NCBI GenBank assembly: GCA_949744505.1
Contig: CATJXY010000048.1
Location: 1 to 50,152, forward strand
DNA length: 50,152 nt
Direction of reading: 5' to 3'
Source: an uncultured Erysipelotrichaceae bacterium
Lineage (GTDB): Bacteria > Bacillota_I > Bacilli_A > Erysipelotrichales > Erysipelotrichaceae
Positions within the stretch are counted from its first letter, which is position 1. Every line of letters begins with the position of its first letter. The notes under the pieces were generated by a model. That model was not told where the DNA came from and did no database searches. It saw only the letters and a list, made by a program, of their open reading frames with translations. The position numbers and the translations under genes were made by a program. Positions 13,121-32,361 of this stretch are shown here, in pieces.

Positions 13121-13149
13121 TTGACTAAATGAAATCGCTTACTTATAAT
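13121..13149 (+). promoter_or_regulatory. PTS operon promoter
   Basis: TTGACT (13121-13126), a 17-bp spacer and perfect TATAAT (13144-13149). Start of transcription is expected near 13156, leaving a leader of only about 18 nt, almost all of it ribosome site. Confidence 0.88.
13129..13143 (+). promoter_or_regulatory. cre site (CcpA operator) in the PTS promoter spacer
   Basis: ATGAAATCGCTTACT matches every fixed position of the consensus WTGNAANCGNWNNCW. It lies exactly between the -35 and -10 boxes, where CcpA binding should block RNA polymerase. Confidence 0.82.
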
Positions 13150-13173
13150 AATGTCAGAGGGAGGTTCAAAGAT

Positions 13174-13908
13174 ATGAACACATTATTATTAGCCATCTTG
13201 CTTGGTTTGTGGAACGGTGTCTCACAGGTTATCGCTTTGTCTGGTATCGGTATCCGTACAGCCTTGATGAGTGGTGTAGTTGCAGGTTTGCTAGTTGGTG
13301 ATCCACAATCTGGATTAACAATCGGTGCTACTTGTACACTTATGAGTATTGGTTTCTTCACATATGGAGGAGCTACAGTTCCTGATTATATTACTGGATC
13401 AATTTTCGGTGTAGTAATTGCTAAAGAAACAGGTAACTATGATTTAGGTTTGACAACTGCTATTTTATTGTCATTGTTGATGACTCAGATGGATATTCTG
13501 GGACGTGCTTCAACAACAGTATTCCAGCACCTTGCTGATAAGGCTCTTGCTCAAAACAGCATCAAGAAGTTCGAAATGTGGACTCTTGCTGGTACACTTC
13601 CTTGGATGCTTTCAAGATTTATCCCAGTATTTGTTGGTGTATTGTTGAAAGACAATCTTGGTGGTTTGACACAATTGTCAGAAAATTTAGTTTGGTTCTC
13701 TGATGGTTTGAGAACTGTTGGATCTGCACTTCCTGCAGTAGGATTTGCATTGTTATTGTCTTATATGGATATAAAGAAATTCTGGCCATTCATGGTTTTG
13801 GGTTATGTATTGTTCGCTTACTTAGGTCTTGGAACAATCGGTTTGGCTCTTATCGGAGCTGCTGCTGGAGCTCTTTATACAACATTCCAAGTTAAGGAGG
13901 CTCAGTAA
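13174..13908 (+). CDS. PTS mannose/fructose/sorbose family IIC component
   Basis: This is the membrane sugar channel of a mannose-class PTS. The 244-residue protein is strongly hydrophobic, with about seven TM segments and the family's conserved GATCTLMSIGFFTYGGA-type region. The start is ATG 13174 with AGAGGGAGG upstream; an in-frame ATG at 13129 lies inside the promoter. It is the first of four genes, order IIC-IID-IIA-IIB. Codons are visibly enriched in GCT, GGT and CTT compared with flanking genes, suggesting high expression. Confidence 0.92.
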   Translation: MNTLLLAILLGLWNGVSQVIALSGIGIRTALMSGVVAGLLVGDPQSGLTIGATCTLMSIGFFTYGGATVPDYITGSIFGVVIAKETGNYDLGLTTAILLSLLMTQMDILGRASTTVFQHLADKALAQNSIKKFEMWTLAGTLPWMLSRFIPVFVGVLLKDNLGGLTQLSENLVWFSDGLRTVGSALPAVGFALLLSYMDIKKFWPFMVLGYVLFAYLGLGTIGLALIGAAAGALYTTFQVKEAQ

Positions 13909-13910
13909 TT

Positions 13911-14735
13911 ATGGGTAGAACTAATAAGAAATTAAGCGTTAAGGCTAGAAAGTCTGCTGCTGTACGTCACCATTGGGCACTTCAATGGTGCTGGAACTAC
14001 GAACGTATGCAAGCTGCTGGTTATGCATATGCAATGGTTCCTGTTATGAAAGAACTTTATGAAACAGAAGAAGAACAGTGCCGTGAGCTTGAAAGACATA
14101 TGGTTTTCTATAACACAAACCCATTTGCTTCTGCTTTGATTTTCGGTGCTGACGTTGCATTGGAAGAAAACTACGAAGGTGAAATCGGAGATAGCTTGAA
14201 AGTTGCTTTGATGGGACCTTTGGCTGGTATTGGTGATACAATTTCAGCAGTATTGTTAACTCCTCCATTCAGCATCATGGCTGCATCTCTTGCAAACGAA
14301 GGAAGCTGGTTGGCATTGATCGTTGCTACTCTTCCATCTTTGATTACATTCGTTGCTCGTTGGCCATTGTTCAGCTATGGTTATGCTAAAGGTACAGATA
14401 TTATCGCTGATGTATCCGGAAGTTCTTCATTGGATACACTTCAAACAGCTGCATCTGTATTAGGTATGACAGTTATCGGTGGATTCATTCCTTCAATTAT
14501 CGGTTTGAAATTTAAAGTTAAACTTGGTAATGACTTGGTAAATGAAGCTGGTGAAGTAGTTCAAGCTGCTAAAACACTTCAAGAATCATTGGATGCAATC
14601 CTTCCTTATATGGTACCAATTCTAGTAACAGCATTCTGCTACTGGTTGATCAAAGTTAAGAAGGTTACACCTCTTAAGACAATTCTTCTATTGTTTGTAC
14701 TTGCATTCATTATGGGTGCAATCGGCTGGATGTAA
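13911..14735 (+). CDS. PTS mannose/fructose/sorbose family IID component
   Basis: IID forms the transporter core with IIC. The 274-residue protein has the N-terminal amphipathic NYERMQAAGYAYAMVP segment and the highly conserved MGPLAGIGDTI motif of EIID proteins, then TM helices to the C-terminus (ending IMGAIGWM). It begins 2 bp after IIC. Substrate specificity cannot be read from sequence; mannose, fructose, sorbose and amino sugars are all handled by this class. Confidence 0.93.
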   Translation: MGRTNKKLSVKARKSAAVRHHWALQWCWNYERMQAAGYAYAMVPVMKELYETEEEQCRELERHMVFYNTNPFASALIFGADVALEENYEGEIGDSLKVALMGPLAGIGDTISAVLLTPPFSIMAASLANEGSWLALIVATLPSLITFVARWPLFSYGYAKGTDIIADVSGSSSLDTLQTAASVLGMTVIGGFIPSIIGLKFKVKLGNDLVNEAGEVVQAAKTLQESLDAILPYMVPILVTAFCYWLIKVKKVTPLKTILLLFVLAFIMGAIGWM

Positions 14736-14744
14736 GAGACGATT

Positions 14745-15143
14745 ATGCAAGGAATTGTGATAATAAGCCACGGCGGTATGGCAGAAGGTATGTTGGATTC
14801 TGCAAAAATGTTCTTTGGAGAACTTGAGCAAGTAACAGCATGCAGTTTGCAGCCGGCAGATAGTCCAGAAGAATTTGATGTTAGATTGGAAGCTGCTATT
14901 GCACAAGTTAATAGCGGTGAAGGAGTAATCGTGTTGGCTGACTTGTTAGGTGGAACACCAGCAAACCGTTCCGCTTATAAGGCGTCAGACGATGTTCAGA
15001 TCATTACAGGTATGAACTTGACAATGTTTTTGGAACTATTAGGTTTACGTTTAGGTGGCGAAGTTCAAGTACAAAGCTTGATTGAAGCCGGACAAAATGG
15101 TATCGTAAGTTTGAATCAATTATTAGGCGGAGGTGACAACTAA
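14745..15143 (+). CDS. PTS mannose-family IIA component
   Basis: This 132-residue cytosolic phosphocarrier has the IIA-Man phosphorylation site H9 in VIISHGGMAEGM and the conserved LADLLGGTPAN motif. It accepts phosphate from HPr and passes it to IIB. Here IIA and IIB are separate genes rather than fused as in E. coli ManX. Its stop codon is one base before the IIB start. Confidence 0.93.
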   Translation: MQGIVIISHGGMAEGMLDSAKMFFGELEQVTACSLQPADSPEEFDVRLEAAIAQVNSGEGVIVLADLLGGTPANRSAYKASDDVQIITGMNLTMFLELLGLRLGGEVQVQSLIEAGQNGIVSLNQLLGGGDN

Positions 15144-15144
15144 T

Positions 15145-15630
15145 ATGATTACACATTTGAGAATTGATAACAGATTAATTCATGGACAGGTCGCAGTAGC
15201 ATGGAAAGGTTATATTGGTGCAGAAGCAATTATTATCTGTAATGATAAAGTTGCAGCAGATCCAATTCAAAAAATGGCTTTACCACTAGCTGCTAGAGGA
15301 TCTAAAGTGCTTGTTTTCACGATTGCTGAAACTCTTCAGTATGCTAAAGACCATCCTGATGAAACCATGTTTGTAATTTGCAAATTCCCTACGGATGCTT
15401 TGGAAGTTATCAAATCTGGTGAAGAAGTTAAGGATGTAAATGTCGGTAATGCTGCTCCAATTGCTGGAACAAAGTATGTAATGGTTACTAAATCCATTGC
15501 TGCAACTGCTGAAGATGCTGCAGTCTATCGTGAGATTGCTTCATTACGCGGTGGCAAATTGAGAAGTCAAATGACACCTATCCAAGATGAAATTGATTTC
15601 TTGAAAGCATTATCAGACGCAGGTCTATAA
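15145..15630 (+). CDS. PTS mannose-family IIB component
   Basis: This 161-residue protein has the IIB active-site block RIDNRLIHGQV, with H13 as phosphate acceptor. It transfers phosphate to the sugar during uptake through IIC-IID. The start is ATG 15145, preceded by GGAGGTGA inside the end of IIA; the in-frame GTG at 15133 lies within that ribosome site. It is the last gene of the PTS operon. No dedicated regulator or sugar-processing enzyme is attached. Confidence 0.93.
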   Translation: MITHLRIDNRLIHGQVAVAWKGYIGAEAIIICNDKVAADPIQKMALPLAARGSKVLVFTIAETLQYAKDHPDETMFVICKFPTDALEVIKSGEEVKDVNVGNAAPIAGTKYVMVTKSIAATAEDAAVYREIASLRGGKLRSQMTPIQDEIDFLKALSDAGL

Positions 15631-17934: not shown

Positions 17935-17962
17935 TTGACAAGGCTATAAAATAAGATATAAT
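17935..17962 (+). promoter_or_regulatory. Promoter of the Bax-inhibitor-1 gene
   Basis: Perfect TTGACA (17935-17940), a 16-bp spacer and perfect TATAAT (17957-17962). Transcription should start near 17969, inside the CIRCE operator. Confidence 0.88.
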
Positions 17963-17966
17963 TATA

Positions 17967-17993
17967 TTAGCACTTATTTAGTTTGAGTGCTAA
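17967..17993 (+). promoter_or_regulatory. CIRCE operator (HrcA binding site)
   Basis: TTAGCACTT-N9-GAGTGCTAA. The CIRCE consensus is TTAGCACTC-N9-GAGTGCTAA, so 17 of 18 positions match, with one C-to-T change in the left arm. It sits at the transcription start, where HrcA repressor should block the promoter at normal temperature. Confidence 0.9.
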
Positions 17994-18057
17994 TGGCGGA
18001 AATGATTATAAATTTCATTTGCGGTTAAAATAAGAATATAGAAAGAAGGTTATATTT

Positions 18058-18768
18058 ATGAGTGAAAGAAATGTAATGGATGGACAGGGATACTCTTCAA
18101 CGTCTGACTTAAATCGATTTATGACAAGAACATATGGTTGGATGGGATTAGGTTTATTGGTAACAGCAGTTGTTGCGTATCTTACATTAACCACAGGATT
18201 ATTTTATTATATTTATTCAAATAGTTTTATCATGCCGGTATTGATTATTGCTGAATTGGTTTTATGTATTGCTATGCAAGGAGCATTAAGAAAGACAAAT
18301 CCTGGAATGGTTACACTTTATTATTTTGGATATGCAGCTTTGACAGGAATTACATTCTCGAGTATTGGTATTCTATATGATATGGGAACAATTTTCATGG
18401 CTTTTGGTTATACTGCATTTGTGTTTGTCTGTCTATGTGCTATTGGAAAAACAACAAAGATGGATATGACAAGTTATGCCCCGATGTTGTTTTCCGGGTT
18501 ATTAGTAGCTATTGTTGTTTCTATTGTAAATATCTTTTTAGGACTTGAATTTATTGATACAGTTTTGTGTTATGTTGTTATCGGATTATTCTTGGCAATT
18601 ACAATTTTTGATGTACAGCGATTAAGAAATGCTTATTATGAAATGAGCGGAGATCGCCAAGGATTAGCAACAATCAGTATGTACGGAGCATTTATGCTTT
18701 ATCTTGACTTTATTAATATTTTCTTGCGTGTTCTACAAATTTTCGGAAAGAGAAATAATCGTAATTAA
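18058..18768 (+). CDS. Bax inhibitor-1/YccA family membrane protein
   Basis: The 236-residue protein has seven TM helices and the BI-1 family hallmarks: FMTRTYGWMGLGLLVTA at the start, GITFSSIGILY in the middle and IFDVQRLRN before the last helix. Bacterial members include E. coli YccA, an FtsH protease substrate and modulator, and B. subtilis YetJ, a pH-sensitive calcium leak channel. The CIRCE operator upstream places it in the HrcA heat-shock regulon, which suits a membrane-protein quality-control role. It is monocistronic, with a 90-nt leader and its own terminator. Confidence 0.92.
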   Translation: MSERNVMDGQGYSSTSDLNRFMTRTYGWMGLGLLVTAVVAYLTLTTGLFYYIYSNSFIMPVLIIAELVLCIAMQGALRKTNPGMVTLYYFGYAALTGITFSSIGILYDMGTIFMAFGYTAFVFVCLCAIGKTTKMDMTSYAPMLFSGLLVAIVVSIVNIFLGLEFIDTVLCYVVIGLFLAITIFDVQRLRNAYYEMSGDRQGLATISMYGAFMLYLDFINIFLRVLQIFGKRNNRN

Positions 18769-18788
18769 GTATATTAATTAAAGGATAG

Positions 18789-18840
18789 ACTCTTGGTGCA
18801 GCTTGAAAAATTGGATTCTTCTGCATTAAGAGTTTTTATT
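18789..18840 (+). terminator. Terminator of the Bax-inhibitor-1 gene
   Basis: ACTCTT plus GTGCAG (18789-18801) pair with CTGCAT plus AAGAGT (18821-18833), with a one-base mismatch between the two helices. TTTTATTTTA follows. Confidence 0.8.
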
Positions 18841-18877
18841 TTATTGACAAAGCATTTTAAATTTATGAGCATGAAAA

Positions 18878-24369: not shown

Positions 24370-25086
24370 ATGAAGAAAAGTTTGTTTATCTCTGTAATTA
24401 TTTTTATAATTACGGTTATACTTGCTCTATCATTTGAGATGAATTCAAATGATACATATATTCAGTCCATTTATGAAAATGAGATTGTCATAGAAGAAAC
24501 AAAAGCAGAGACAGGAGAAGAAAGTTATGAAAAGGGTAATTATGAAGAATTCAAAAGAATTAATCAAGATGTTTTGTTTGTATTACATTTTTATGATCGG
24601 GATCTTCCGGTGGTGTTTAATGGGGATAATGAATTTTATGTAAGGAAAAATTTAATCAAAGAATATAGTTCGATGGGAACACCGTTTGTTGATCAATATA
24701 CTGGTTTTCAAGGCAGAAATACTTTGATTCATGCCCATAGTTCTCAAAATAATGAAAGAATGTTTACTTTTTTTAAGTATTTCTGTGATCAGGAATATGC
24801 GGATAAACATTCTTTTTTTACGATTGAAGGGAAAGATCAAACATGGGAAATGGTTATTTTTTCTGTCATAAAAATTGATTTGGATCAAGATGATTATCGA
24901 GATTGGATGAAAAAGGATTGGCGTAATGAAGATGAATTCATGAATTTTATTGCCGAAATTAAAAGGAGAAGCCTGATTGAAACATCTGTAGAAGTAGAAC
25001 CAAAGGAACGGTTCATAACGATGGTGACATGTGATATGAGTATTGAAAATGGAAGGTTTCTTATTTTTGCGAAAGAAAATATATGA
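24370..25086 (+). CDS. Class B sortase
   Basis: The 238-residue transpeptidase has an N-terminal TM anchor (about 4-23) and an extracellular sortase domain. The catalytic triad is visible: H123 in LIHAH, C221 in TMVTCD and R229 in GRFLIFAK. MFTFFKYF after the histidine and the long helix before the catalytic strand are class B features. The usual YGH reads HAH. The start at 24370 has a perfect AGGAGG; an in-frame GTG 30 bp upstream lies at the terminator. It lies 16 bp before the giant adhesin gene, its presumed substrate. Confidence 0.88.
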   Translation: MKKSLFISVIIFIITVILALSFEMNSNDTYIQSIYENEIVIEETKAETGEESYEKGNYEEFKRINQDVLFVLHFYDRDLPVVFNGDNEFYVRKNLIKEYSSMGTPFVDQYTGFQGRNTLIHAHSSQNNERMFTFFKYFCDQEYADKHSFFTIEGKDQTWEMVIFSVIKIDLDQDDYRDWMKKDWRNEDEFMNFIAEIKRRSLIETSVEVEPKERFITMVTCDMSIENGRFLIFAKENI

Positions 25087-25102
25087 AAGGAGAATAGATA
25101 CA

Positions 25103-28100
25103 ATGGTAAAAAAATTTAAAGTAATGATTTGTTGTATTGTAATTGCTTGGCTTCATTTTCCGAATTTTAATTTATGGGCAGAAGAGGTTACAGAGGATGA
25201 TTCTACAACGACAATGATTGCAGAATCAAGTGAAGAATTTTTGGAAAACTTAGTGATTTCTGAAGAGTCAGAAGATGAAATTGCTTTATTTTCATCTGAG
25301 CTTTATAAAGGGGAAAGAATTGGGAAACATTATCATAATGGGCAGTTTATAAGCTACATAACAAAAATGTATATAGAGGGTCAACTTGCCTATTGCCTTG
25401 AACCGTATGTTTTAATACCGGGTGGTCAAGGAAGTACTATTCCCGGATATGAGGCAAGTGGGATTTTATCTTATGATCGATTGGATTATGCGACTAAAGT
25501 GAAAATATGGAAAATAGCTTATTATGGCTACGGTTATAATGGAAAATGGGATAATGAACGGTTTGCGGCTACACAGTGTTTGATCTGGGATGCAATAAAT
25601 GAACCGCAAGAAGCCTATACAATGTCAGATGAACCATGGGATTTAAGTGCTGTTAAAAATGAGATCAATTACCTCGTAGAAACAAATCCTGCCGGGCAGG
25701 TTCCGTCATTTGCAGGAGAAACGGTTAAGCTTTCGTTGAATAAGTCAGTAAACTTAAAAGATGAAAATTATGTTTTAGCTAATTATGCGATTCCTGAAGT
25801 AAAGAATATTGCGATTAATCAAAATGGGAATGAATTAAATTTGAAATTGGAAAATTCAATGGATTTTGCATCTTCATTAAATGCATCCGGTTCAGTTTAT
25901 AATGCACTTGTGCAAAGTGTTATATGGAAAAATGCAGATTATCAAATTATGTTTACTCAACATTATGAACCGATGAAAGATTTTTCTCTTTTCTTTGAGT
26001 TGGATGCTGTTCCATTTTCTATATTAAAACTTGATAAAGAAACGAGGGGAGTTTCACAAGGGGAAGCAACGCTTATCGGAGCTGTTATTTCGATAAGAGA
26101 GGCACAAAGTAAAAACGAAATTCTTCAATTAACGATGAATGATTCAAATTCTATAACTTATGAAGATTTACCGGCAGGAGAATATTTGGCATGTGAAATT
26201 GTGGCGCCGCAAGGATATTTGTTAAATAATCAATGTGTTCCATTTTCTACTTTATCGAATCATTCTGTTCAAGTTGAAATTAAAGATGAAGTAATCCGGG
26301 GACAAATTGAAATAATAAAAAAAGATACAGAGAGTGGATTAAGCCCAATTAATGAAGCTGAGTTTACAGTATTTGATACAAAGGGGCAGCTTGTAGATAC
26401 GATAAAGGTTGTTAACGGGAAAGGAATTTCCACTTCTTTACCCTATGGTCACTATACGATCAAAGAAAGTGTTGCACCGAAAGGATATGTGCTTTCAGAG
26501 GAAGAATTTGAAGTATTTATTGATGGAAGGAAAGAAGTTATTTCTGTTGAAATATTAAATCAACCGCAAAAAGGTCAGATAACAATTATGAAACAAGATG
26601 AAGAAACCGGAAATGAAGCACAAGGAGAAGCAAGTCTTCGTGATGTAGTTTATGAAATTTTTGCGGAAAAAGAAATAGTCGGATATGATGGACAAGTACT
26701 TTACCAAAAGAATGATTTAGTGGAAACAGTGAAGGCAGAAGGCACAATCGCAAAATCTTCCTCAGTACCGATTGGAACTTATCGGGTTTGCGAAAAGATT
26801 GCATCTGTCGGTTATAACTTGAATCCGGCATGTGAAATCGTGGAGCTGTCATTACCGGATAAAACAGAACTTCTCAGTCATTCAGAGATTAACTTCAAAA
26901 ATAGTGTGATCAAAGGGAAAGTTGCAATAACTAAATTTATTATCGGTGATGAGAATTTAAAAGAAAATCGAAATTCCGGAGTTGTATCTGCTGGAAAAGG
27001 ATTTTCTTTTGATATAATTGCGCTTAAAAATAACGAAGTCGTGGATACTTTAATTACAGATGAAAATGGGGTTGCTACATCAAACTGGTTACCTTATGGT
27101 AGATATTTAATTAAAGAAAAAGATAAAATAGGGTTTGAAATCGCAAAAGAATTTGAAATCATGATCAGTGAAAATGAAAAAACTGTTCACTTTATTCTTG
27201 AAAATGATGTTTTTGAATCGGAATTGATAATTTATAAAGTAGATAAGGAAACGAATAAAAGAGTTCTGACATCAGGGGCATCGTTTAAGATTAAGGATAG
27301 CAATGGGAACTTTATAACACAAACAGTTACCTATCCACAAAAAGTTGAAATTGATACATTTACTACAGATTCAACAGGTTCTATTCATCTTCCCTCTCCG
27401 TTATCCTTTGGAACTTATACTCTTGTTGAAGTTCATGCACCGGTCGGATATGTTTTAAGTGATGAAGAAATTGAGTTTCAAGTGGATGGAACGAGTAAAG
27501 AAATTGTGATTGAATTCCCTGATAAACCGACAAAAGGAATTTTGGTTATAGAGAAGACGGGAGAAGTCTTGAGTGGATTTGATAAGATGGATACTCCTTT
27601 TGGAACTGTGGCAGTACCCAAATTTGAAGAAAAAATATTAGATGGAGTTACATATCGAATTATTGCAAGAGAAGATATCGTTACTTCAGATCAAACGGTG
27701 TGGTATAGGGCTAATGAAACGGTAACAGAATTTACAACATCTAAGGACGAACCCACTACTTCGATAGAACTTCCGTTAGGGGCATATTCATTTTATGAAG
27801 TACAAAGTAAGGCCGGTTATATAAAAGATGAGAAAATTTATGATTTTGATTTGGTATATGAGAATGAATGTGTTGAGATAGTTACTTCTTATAAAAAGCA
27901 TTTTAATAAGAGGAAAAAAGCAATTTTAAATTATGAAAAAAGTTTTGAAGATTCTGTTTTTGGTGAAAATGAGGAAATGAAAGAAGGGGTTGTATTCGGC
28001 TTATATAATGCAAAGGATATTCTTATGGGAGATGAAGTTGTATTACCCCAAGGAAGTTTATTGGGATATAGTTTGTTAAAAAAAGATTTTAGTGGTTCTT

Positions 28101-30394
28101 TTGATATTGAACTGGCAGGAAATTATTTTATTAAAGAAATTGCGTCTGGGAATGGATATGAATTAAACGAAAAAGAATATTATTTCACTGTTGACTTTTC
28201 CGATATGAATCAGGATATTTTTTATTTACAATTAGACGAAAAGATATTGAATGAAACAAAGAAAGGTTCTTTAACAATTATCAAAAGGGATGAATTTTAT
28301 GAAACTGGAGAAGAGTTGTTGGTGAAAGATGGATTTGTATTTGAAATTTCAACGGATGAAAAATTTAATAATATTATTTCGCAACAGGAAACGGATGAAA
28401 ATGGGAAAGTGGTATTTGATAATTTAGAAATCGGTACATACTATGTGAGAGAAAGTGATTGCCCACATTCTTATTTGTTGTCTGATGAAGTTTTTGAAGT
28501 ACAGATCATGTATCGTGAAAATACGGAAATTGAAGTGGTAAATAAACGACGACTTGTTGAATTAGAAATCATAAAACGAGATTATGATGATGAAAGTAAG
28601 CTATTGGAAGATGCTGAGTTTAGAATTAAAGAAGTAAGAAGCGGAAACGAAGTGTTTACCGGGAAAACAAATCAAGATGGGAAGTTAAGAGTTAGTAATT
28701 TAAAATGGGGAGAAGATTATGAAATCTGTGAAACAAAAACTCCGAAAGGATATACATATTTGACTGAGAATGGGTGCAAAATATGGAATGGCCGTCTTAA
28801 TGAAGACTTATCGGTTTTGACAGAAGAATGGATAAACAAAAGAGAAAAAGGAAATCTTCATATAACAAAAACCGATGAGTATGGAAAAGTATTCAGTGGC
28901 TCGGTATTTGTAATCAGTAGTCATGAGGATTTTGATGAAATTCTATATACTATTGATACAGATGAGAATGGAGAAATTTATATTGAGCAGATTCCTACAG
29001 GAGTATATTATTTGAGGGAGATTGACTGTGATGAACGATTTGAATTGAATACATCAATCGTTGAGGTTGAAATATCGGCAAATCAAACTCAAGAGATAGT
29101 TTTTGAAAATCGATATCGAGATATTGATGTCAAAATTATTAAAACAGATGAAAAAGATAATTTGTTGAATGAAGCGGAATTTATTGCTTTGGATATAACG
29201 GATGGACAAGTTCTGGAAACGTATTATCTTACTTTAGGGGAAACGATTGATTTGACAGAATTTTTTCTGAAAGATGTTCGTTATATTTCTTCTGAAGAAT
29301 CTGTGATTTCAATAGAGGGAACATGGGCAAAAGCACAAAAGGAAGGAGATACACTGATTAGTGCAGTGGATAAAGAAGGACAGCTTAAGAAGGTTGTTTT
29401 AATAAAGTGTATAAGTTCGATAAAGGATCAAAAAGTATTTTGGCAAGAAGAGAATTTAAAAGGAGATGTTACTTCATTAGATTGGGAGGATCAAATTCTT
29501 TTCAAGGGAAGAACAGGTCATTCTTACTTGCATATAACTGATTTGCAACATCATAATGCTCCGCTTAGAGAGAAACAGGTTGCTTTTTATAATTCATATG
29601 ATTCAAAAAATCCAGTTGTGATTAAAATAAGTGATGAATTCGGAATGATATGTTTGGATGAATTTGATGAAAAGACATGGTATTATGAAGTCTCAGGGAG
29701 TGATGAGCGTTTAAAAATTGAAGTCAATAAAAACGATGGGGAGTTGATGGTTCAAGGATTAAAATGGGGGAGAGAATATTTGTTGATTGAAACGGCTTTG
29801 CCACAGGGGATGATGTATGATAAATCTCCATTTACAAAGATAGATTTGACACTGGGTCCAAACGAAACAATTTATGATGTTACAATCCGTAATAAAACAA
29901 GAAAAGTTTCGCTTAAAGTAACTAAAACTGATGATAAACAAGAAAAGAAGCTGAATGGAGCAAGTTTTATTCTAAAAGATAAGGATTCGAACTTGGAATT
30001 GGAAGAAAAGATTACCGGAACTTTATTTATAAAAGATACAGATGAGAGCAGCTTCTTGGCTAGAGATAAAGAAATGAATGAAATGATTTCTATTCTTCAT
30101 CCGAATCAATTTAATGAGATACTAGAAAATCTTCCGGAAGGAACTTATTATCTTCAGACAATATCAGAGATGATGAGCGATGTTCAACAAGTGAAGATTG
30201 AAAAAGGTGTAACCGTATTTCATAATCTTAATGCAGGCAAAGAGTATATTCTTTATGAAAATGAAGCACCTTCCGGTTATCTAAAGCAAGAAGAGGAAAT
30301 ATCAATTGTATTGAATCCGGATTTCTTAACTGATGAAGTGGAAGTGATATTGACAAATTCATTGATTGAGATACCAAATATGAAAGAACAATAA
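25103..30394 (+). CDS. Giant surface adhesin: thioester domain plus SpaA/CnaB repeats
   Basis: The 1763-residue exported protein has a signal peptide of about 26 residues (ending LWA). The thioester domain has C98 (LAYCLEP) and Q158 (ATQCLIWDAI), the pair expected to form an internal Cys-Gln thioester for covalent host binding. From about residue 310 there are some ten or more CnaB/SpaA prealbumin-like repeats, each starting like IIKKD/ITKTD and ending in a YxxKE...P-x-GY block, able to form isopeptide bonds. Near 1370-1430 a Big-like segment interrupts them. The C-terminus stops at LIEIPNMKEQ with no TM or basic tail. The start at 25103 has AAAGGAG. Confidence 0.9.
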   Translation: MVKKFKVMICCIVIAWLHFPNFNLWAEEVTEDDSTTTMIAESSEEFLENLVISEESEDEIALFSSELYKGERIGKHYHNGQFISYITKMYIEGQLAYCLEPYVLIPGGQGSTIPGYEASGILSYDRLDYATKVKIWKIAYYGYGYNGKWDNERFAATQCLIWDAINEPQEAYTMSDEPWDLSAVKNEINYLVETNPAGQVPSFAGETVKLSLNKSVNLKDENYVLANYAIPEVKNIAINQNGNELNLKLENSMDFASSLNASGSVYNALVQSVIWKNADYQIMFTQHYEPMKDFSLFFELDAVPFSILKLDKETRGVSQGEATLIGAVISIREAQSKNEILQLTMNDSNSITYEDLPAGEYLACEIVAPQGYLLNNQCVPFSTLSNHSVQVEIKDEVIRGQIEIIKKDTESGLSPINEAEFTVFDTKGQLVDTIKVVNGKGISTSLPYGHYTIKESVAPKGYVLSEEEFEVFIDGRKEVISVEILNQPQKGQITIMKQDEETGNEAQGEASLRDVVYEIFAEKEIVGYDGQVLYQKNDLVETVKAEGTIAKSSSVPIGTYRVCEKIASVGYNLNPACEIVELSLPDKTELLSHSEINFKNSVIKGKVAITKFIIGDENLKENRNSGVVSAGKGFSFDIIALKNNEVVDTLITDENGVATSNWLPYGRYLIKEKDKIGFEIAKEFEIMISENEKTVHFILENDVFESELIIYKVDKETNKRVLTSGASFKIKDSNGNFITQTVTYPQKVEIDTFTTDSTGSIHLPSPLSFGTYTLVEVHAPVGYVLSDEEIEFQVDGTSKEIVIEFPDKPTKGILVIEKTGEVLSGFDKMDTPFGTVAVPKFEEKILDGVTYRIIAREDIVTSDQTVWYRANETVTEFTTSKDEPTTSIELPLGAYSFYEVQSKAGYIKDEKIYDFDLVYENECVEIVTSYKKHFNKRKKAILNYEKSFEDSVFGENEEMKEGVVFGLYNAKDILMGDEVVLPQGSLLGYSLLKKDFSGSFDIELAGNYFIKEIASGNGYELNEKEYYFTVDFSDMNQDIFYLQLDEKILNETKKGSLTIIKRDEFYETGEELLVKDGFVFEISTDEKFNNIISQQETDENGKVVFDNLEIGTYYVRESDCPHSYLLSDEVFEVQIMYRENTEIEVVNKRRLVELEIIKRDYDDESKLLEDAEFRIKEVRSGNEVFTGKTNQDGKLRVSNLKWGEDYEICETKTPKGYTYLTENGCKIWNGRLNEDLSVLTEEWINKREKGNLHITKTDEYGKVFSGSVFVISSHEDFDEILYTIDTDENGEIYIEQIPTGVYYLREIDCDERFELNTSIVEVEISANQTQEIVFENRYRDIDVKIIKTDEKDNLLNEAEFIALDITDGQVLETYYLTLGETIDLTEFFLKDVRYISSEESVISIEGTWAKAQKEGDTLISAVDKEGQLKKVVLIKCISSIKDQKVFWQEENLKGDVTSLDWEDQILFKGRTGHSYLHITDLQHHNAPLREKQVAFYNSYDSKNPVVIKISDEFGMICLDEFDEKTWYYEVSGSDERLKIEVNKNDGELMVQGLKWGREYLLIETALPQGMMYDKSPFTKIDLTLGPNETIYDVTIRNKTRKVSLKVTKTDDKQEKKLNGASFILKDKDSNLELEEKITGTLFIKDTDESSFLARDKEMNEMISILHPNQFNEILENLPEGTYYLQTISEMMSDVQQVKIEKGVTVFHNLNAGKEYILYENEAPSGYLKQEEEISIVLNPDFLTDEVEVILTNSLIEIPNMKEQ

Positions 30395-32011: not shown

Positions 32012-32087
32012 TGGTGGATCCTTGGGGGTTCGAACCCCAGACCCACTGATTAAGAGTCAGTTGCTCTACCAACTGAGCTAAGGATCC
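32012..32087 (-). tRNA. tRNA-Lys (CTT)
   Basis: The minus-strand cloverleaf has acceptor GGATCCT/AGGATCC, an anticodon loop CTCTTAA giving CTT, T-loop TTCGAAC and an encoded CCA. It complements the TTT isoacceptor at 379-454. Confidence 0.96.
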
Positions 32088-32104
32088 ATTGCGATTGCTA
32101 AATA

Positions 32105-32133
32105 ATTATAGCTCATGTTATGATAAAATGCAA
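32105..32133 (-). promoter_or_regulatory. Promoter of tRNA-Lys(CTT)
   Basis: On minus, TTGCAT (32128-32133), a 17-bp spacer and perfect TATAAT (32105-32110) lie 18 bp before the tRNA 5' end. Confidence 0.8.
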
Positions 32134-32164
32134 TATAAATTTTAAGAAGTTGATTGGTTACAAA

Positions 32165-32188
32165 CAAAAAAAGTTCATTTCTGAACTT
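32165..32188 (-). terminator. Terminator of the tRNA-Asn/tRNA-Glu unit
   Basis: AAGTTCA (32171-32177) pairs with TGAACTT (32182-32188). The minus-strand reading continues into a T-run. Confidence 0.85.
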
Positions 32189-32199
32189 GATTTGTAAAA

Positions 32200-32276
32200 T
32201 GGTGACTCGTACGAGATTCGAACTCGTGAATGGCGCCGTGAAAGGGCGCTGTGTTCAGCCGCTTCACCAACGAGCC
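32200..32276 (-). tRNA. tRNA-Glu (TTC)
   Basis: Acceptor GGCTCGT/ACGAGTC (one G-T pair), anticodon loop CTTTCAC giving TTC, T-loop TTCGAAT and an encoded CCA. Confidence 0.96.
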
Positions 32277-32285
32277 ATCTAAGAA

Positions 32286-32361
32286 TGGCGCCTGAAGTAG
32301 GGCTCGAACCTACGACACCGCGGTTAACAGCCGCGTGCTCTGCCGACTGAGCTATTCAGGC
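32286..32361 (-). tRNA. tRNA-Asn (GTT)
   Basis: Acceptor GCCTGAA/TTCAGGC with discriminator G and encoded CCA. The anticodon is GTT. It is co-transcribed with tRNA-Glu. Confidence 0.96.

Follow-up and report, generated by a model that had tools for sequence, protein, structure and literature searches.

The gene for a Bax-inhibitor-1 (BI-1) family membrane protein in an uncultured Erysipelotrichaceae bacterium is preceded by a near-perfect CIRCE operator on a perfect promoter, and was placed, with a probability of about 0.85 judged from the sequence, in the HrcA regulon and under HrcA control. The CIRCE-BI-1 pairing would add a member to a known regulon, recruited in one lineage. A search of open-licence PMC articles found no paper linking HrcA or CIRCE with BI-1, which is weak evidence of novelty. 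The window, meaning the whole stretch of DNA that was analysed, is one complete contig of 50,152 nucleotides (CATJXY010000048.1) from a 1.85-Mb genome in 70 contigs that is 98% complete (GCA_949744505.1). A contaminating contig was judged unlikely after comparing the tetranucleotide composition of the window with that of 42 kb in four stretches of other contigs carrying chaperone genes (r = 0.993, with similar G+C). Other features of the window were two tRNA clusters, at 22-537 (six genes) and 32012-32361 (three genes), four genes at 13129-15630 that, from their translations only, resemble a mannose-type PTS operon, and a very large ORF at 25043-30394, whose 1783-aa product has a signal-like N-terminus and is possibly a secreted or surface protein.

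Promoter, operator and transcription unit of the BI-1 gene

A sigma-A type promoter was located on the forward strand at 17935..17962, in which TTGACA (17935-17940) and TATAAT (17957-17962) are separated by 16 nucleotides and 12 of 12 hexamer positions match. The CIRCE operator (HrcA site), on the same strand at 17967..17993, starts 4 bases 3' of the -10 hexamer, lies 64 bases 5' of the BI-1 gene and consists of TTAGCACTT-ATTTAGTTT-GAGTGCTAA, the N9 spacer being ATTTAGTTT. When this TTAGCACTT-N9-GAGTGCTAA arrangement was compared with the consensus TTAGCACTC-N9-GAGTGCTAA, 17 of 18 arm positions matched, the single mismatch being a T for C at position 9, and the predicted transcription start is expected to fall within the left arm. 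The preliminary description, which had reported such an operator on the start site of a perfect promoter, was borne out. In Mollicutes, functional CIRCEs are those with at most two mutations (PMC5138195). A candidate ribosome-binding site, AGAAGG, was read from the sequence at 18044..18049 (forward strand), 8 nt 5' of the ATG.

No other CIRCE occurs in the 50-kb window when as many as 3 mismatches are allowed (0.01 in shuffled sequences). A chance match was rejected because of the number of sites with at most 1 mismatch expected from base composition, which is ~0.001 per 1.85-Mb genome, and because of a reversed-pattern control, which gave 0 matches in this genome versus nine real CIRCE sites.

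The BI-1 gene (18058..18768, forward strand) encodes a 236-aa membrane protein of the Bax1-I/TMBIM family with a YetJ-like fold. Its assignment to the BI-1/YccA family in the preliminary description was confirmed by Pfam PF01027 (158.5 bits, cut-off 34.1, covering profile positions 1-207 of 207), which has one match in the genome. An intrinsic terminator with a 15-bp stem and a U-rich tail follows on the forward strand at 18787..18835; it was found by RNA folding of 18765-18850 (-22.5 kcal/mol), a simple pattern scan having missed it because its loop exceeds 8 nt. Given this strong hairpin, BI-1 is the sole gene behind the promoter and is monocistronic, as had been stated at the outset. A MATE transporter gene lies on one side and a PatB-type lyase gene on the other.

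The HrcA regulon and the second FtsH

The presence of hrcA and of further CIRCE sites had been proposed as checks on the initial reading, and both were found. The genome contains hrcA (157.7 bits, contig C50), no CtsR was detected in it, and HrcA therefore remains the likely repressor. Nine CIRCE sites distributed over six promoters were located, by pattern search only, and the downstream genes were confirmed by Pfam. Two sites precede hrcA-grpE-dnaK-dnaJ (HrcA, GrpE, DnaJ), two precede groES-groEL (Cpn10/Cpn60) and two precede htpG (HSP90), with one site each before clpB (ClpB), a second ftsH, here called ftsH2 (FtsH, 1 mismatch), and BI-1 (Bax1-I). All eight sites other than that of BI-1 thus stand before proteostasis genes, and BI-1 is the only target other than a chaperone, protease or hrcA operon.

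At the two-site promoters one CIRCE covers the -35 hexamer and the other starts 1 to 7 nt 3' of the -10 hexamer. The BI-1 operator is of the downstream type, holding the position relative to the -10 hexamer that the downstream copies hold at hrcA and htpG, and its quality equals that of any other CIRCE of the genome. The clpB operator (contig C50, 3055-3081 of the locus, in the dnaJ-clpB interval) comes after a terminator-like repeat and some 15 nt short of the ATG, where it adjoins the ribosome-binding site and no promoter hexamers are recognisable. The BI-1 and clpB operators are identical at 25 of 27 positions when one is inverted, a likeness that may or may not be meaningful.

Two FtsH (M41) genes were found in the genome, the main ftsH (contig C40) having no CIRCE and ftsH2 (contig C47, 3868-5757 of the extracted locus) having one. 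The ftsH2 product is a distinct second FtsH of 605 aa in which the FtsH_ext, AAA and M41 domains were all found. CIRCE precedes ftsH2 in 7 of the 16 other family and order genomes that carry the gene (G001, G011, G021, G022, G028, G029 and G031), whereas the 30 best-ranked ftsH loci from relatives gave no CIRCE at up to 3 mismatches, and HrcA control of the second FtsH is thus predicted to be a recurrent trait of the family. Eight family genomes in total carry a CIRCE before a second ftsH paralogue. The BI-1 site joined a regulon that already extended, through ftsH2, to the membrane. Co-occurrence of BI-1 and FtsH2 across genera was not significant (one-sided p = 0.05 within the family and 0.10 with the sister family added), and therefore no fixed partnership was demonstrated. 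Open-licence PMC articles yielded no description of HrcA control of FtsH and none that mentions a CIRCE upstream of ftsH.

The regulon shares its consensus, the placement of operators at promoters and the hrcA-grpE-dnaK-dnaJ and groESL targets with the class I regulon of Bacillus subtilis and Lactobacillus plantarum, but here also includes clpB, htpG, the second ftsH and BI-1. HrcA of B. subtilis controls the dnaK and groE operons (PMC8957991), and L. plantarum likewise has two CIRCEs before hrcA (PMC3842655). In Mollicutes, where the HrcA regulon is extended by clpB, lon and pepA, it also contains a protease and clpB besides chaperones (PMC7737663; PMC5138195); there, however, the protease is Lon, FtsH is outside the HrcA set and no BI-1 is reported.

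Occurrence of the operator among related BI-1 loci

Conservation of the inverted repeat upstream of BI-1 orthologues had been proposed as a further check, and on this point the search was negative. Among 258 BI-1 loci scanned across the family, order and phylum and collection-wide (228 distinct, some shortened by contig ends), CIRCE at up to 4 mismatches was found at 0 of the 228 distinct other loci, 103 of which belong to the same family. A conserved CIRCE-BI-1 link in relatives was accordingly rejected. The nearest genera by DnaK (85-86% identity; G068, G233-G235, G035, G215-G217 and G252) all have BI-1, and those sampled have it without CIRCE. The genomes searched include one species only of the source genus. 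Conservation of an operator across orthologues supports membership of a regulon but does not define it; the comparison shows, at the level of sequence, a CIRCE-BI-1 link that is lineage-specific, not one that is absent in this genome. Control of the other BI-1 genes by CtsR was also considered and rejected, weak CtsR-like boxes being present in 2 of 100 upstream regions and unconvincing.

No conserved BI-1 gene neighbourhood was found across relatives, in which BI-1 often stands close behind a ThiF-family gene or a gene for a protein of about 460 aa without annotation. In several of the nearest relatives (G233, G252 and G030) BI-1 lies directly behind the ThiF-family gene, apparently in one operon. 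In others it starts shortly after, or slightly before, the end of a gene for a protein of about 450-470 aa without a Pfam match above cut-off. In this lineage the operator was apparently acquired once BI-1 had left the operons that it occupies in many relatives; in the simplest account, BI-1 became free-standing and gained a CIRCE promoter.

Possible roles of the BI-1 protein and alternative readings

The following sequence of events is proposed. At normal temperature GroESL would keep HrcA active, and HrcA bound to the CIRCE over the start site would block the strong promoter. Once GroESL is taken up with misfolded proteins, HrcA would leave the CIRCE, and BI-1 would then be produced along with DnaK/J, GrpE, GroESL, ClpB, HtpG and FtsH2, so that we infer heat induction of the gene. 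The part of BI-1 would most likely be played at the membrane, in protecting or tuning membrane proteins during the rise of FtsH2. It could do so by binding FtsH, as do YccA of Escherichia coli and mitochondrial TMBIM5 with AFG3L2, or through a YetJ-like ion-leak activity of its own.

The protein is all-helical in its AlphaFold model (pLDDT 83.9), and Foldseek matched it significantly to YetJ structures only (TM 0.60-0.72, probability 1.00), as did the sequence matches in the PDB; the closest BI-1 relatives found are 45% identical. B. subtilis YetJ, a proposed calcium leak channel, has the same fold and keeps the positions of two sensor aspartates, but is only ~23% identical to BI-1 here, and yetJ is not known to be under heat-shock control. 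Residues D185 and D217, which by the PDB sequence alignment occupy the positions of the two YetJ pH-sensor aspartates, are invariant in 19 relatives. The YccA equivalog NF007765 (NCBIfam) scored 24.2 bits versus a cut-off of 353, so by that cut-off the protein is a BI-1 family member but no YccA orthologue. E. coli YccA is, like BI-1 in the proposed scheme, a stress-induced inner-membrane protein of the BI-1 family, one that binds FtsH and protects SecY (PMC7876416; PMC10768439), but its regulator is CpxR. Mitochondrial TMBIM5 is likewise a BI-1 family protein that inhibits an FtsH-type protease, AFG3L2, but the control there is post-translational and exerted by membrane potential, and no transcriptional coupling was seen (PMC9379554). 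Two BI-1 family members, YccA and TMBIM5, thus have FtsH-type proteases as their targets.

The suggestion in the preliminary description that HrcA ties membrane quality control to the chaperones was therefore strengthened in one part, ftsH2 being under CIRCE as well, and not in the other, YccA-like modulation, which the equivalog score does not favour. By analogy alone, YccA-like modulation of FtsH by this protein is only hypothetical; co-control of ftsH2 by CIRCE makes it better motivated, and tuning of FtsH as the role of BI-1 at the membrane is still rather unlikely. The same grade is given to a broader proposal, in which HrcA would run a joint cytosolic and membrane response, a heat-inducible second FtsH being made together with BI-1 to restrain or direct it, as a bacterial counterpart of TMBIM5-AFG3L2 coupled at transcription by GroESL occupancy; this is offered tentatively, and the odds are against it. 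A somewhat better chance, still short of even, is given to BI-1 being under HrcA and unrelated to FtsH, with a YetJ-like, pH-gated calcium/proton leak adjusting membrane ion balance in heat stress. The restriction of structural and PDB sequence matches to YetJ and the invariant aspartates are consistent with such a leak, but the fold and the aspartates are common to BI-1 proteins generally, so that they do not separate the functions, and co-control with ftsH2 favours a link to the protease.

The operator may also be real and bound by HrcA, but a recent gain, by chance or promoter transfer, of little selective value and no consequence for fitness. The occurrence of CIRCE-BI-1 in one genome only would agree with this, and the 25 of 27 positions shared with the inverted clpB operator would fit a copied promoter element; the arms, the spacing and the placement on a perfect promoter are nevertheless intact, and so specific a palindrome would decay without selection, although its age cannot be dated from one species of the genus. 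A gain of this kind is considered improbable. Far less probable again is that the palindrome is a chance match, the site of another regulator, or an mRNA hairpin. CIRCE influences mRNA stability in B. subtilis, and the transcribed repeat at 17967-17993 can fold (about -11 kcal/mol), which would suit a hairpin; with the expected start inside the left arm, however, part of it may escape transcription, and the chance expectation, the empty control and the presence of hrcA argue against coincidence or another regulator. Regulation of BI-1 by HrcA through this CIRCE, as proposed above, is the reading preferred here.

The BI-1 family spans bacteria to humans, and the reason for the retention of its members in bacteria is poorly understood. 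If true, direct control by the chaperone regulon would be strong evidence for a part of BI-1 in protein quality control in this bacterium. BI-1 here shares its regulon with an extra FtsH; proteases of this family are inhibited by relatives of BI-1 in E. coli and in mitochondria, and the bacterium provides a simple and testable setting for that link. The finding hints at an ability of HrcA regulons to take in membrane genes in individual lineages, and conservation would therefore be unreliable as a filter for real HrcA targets.
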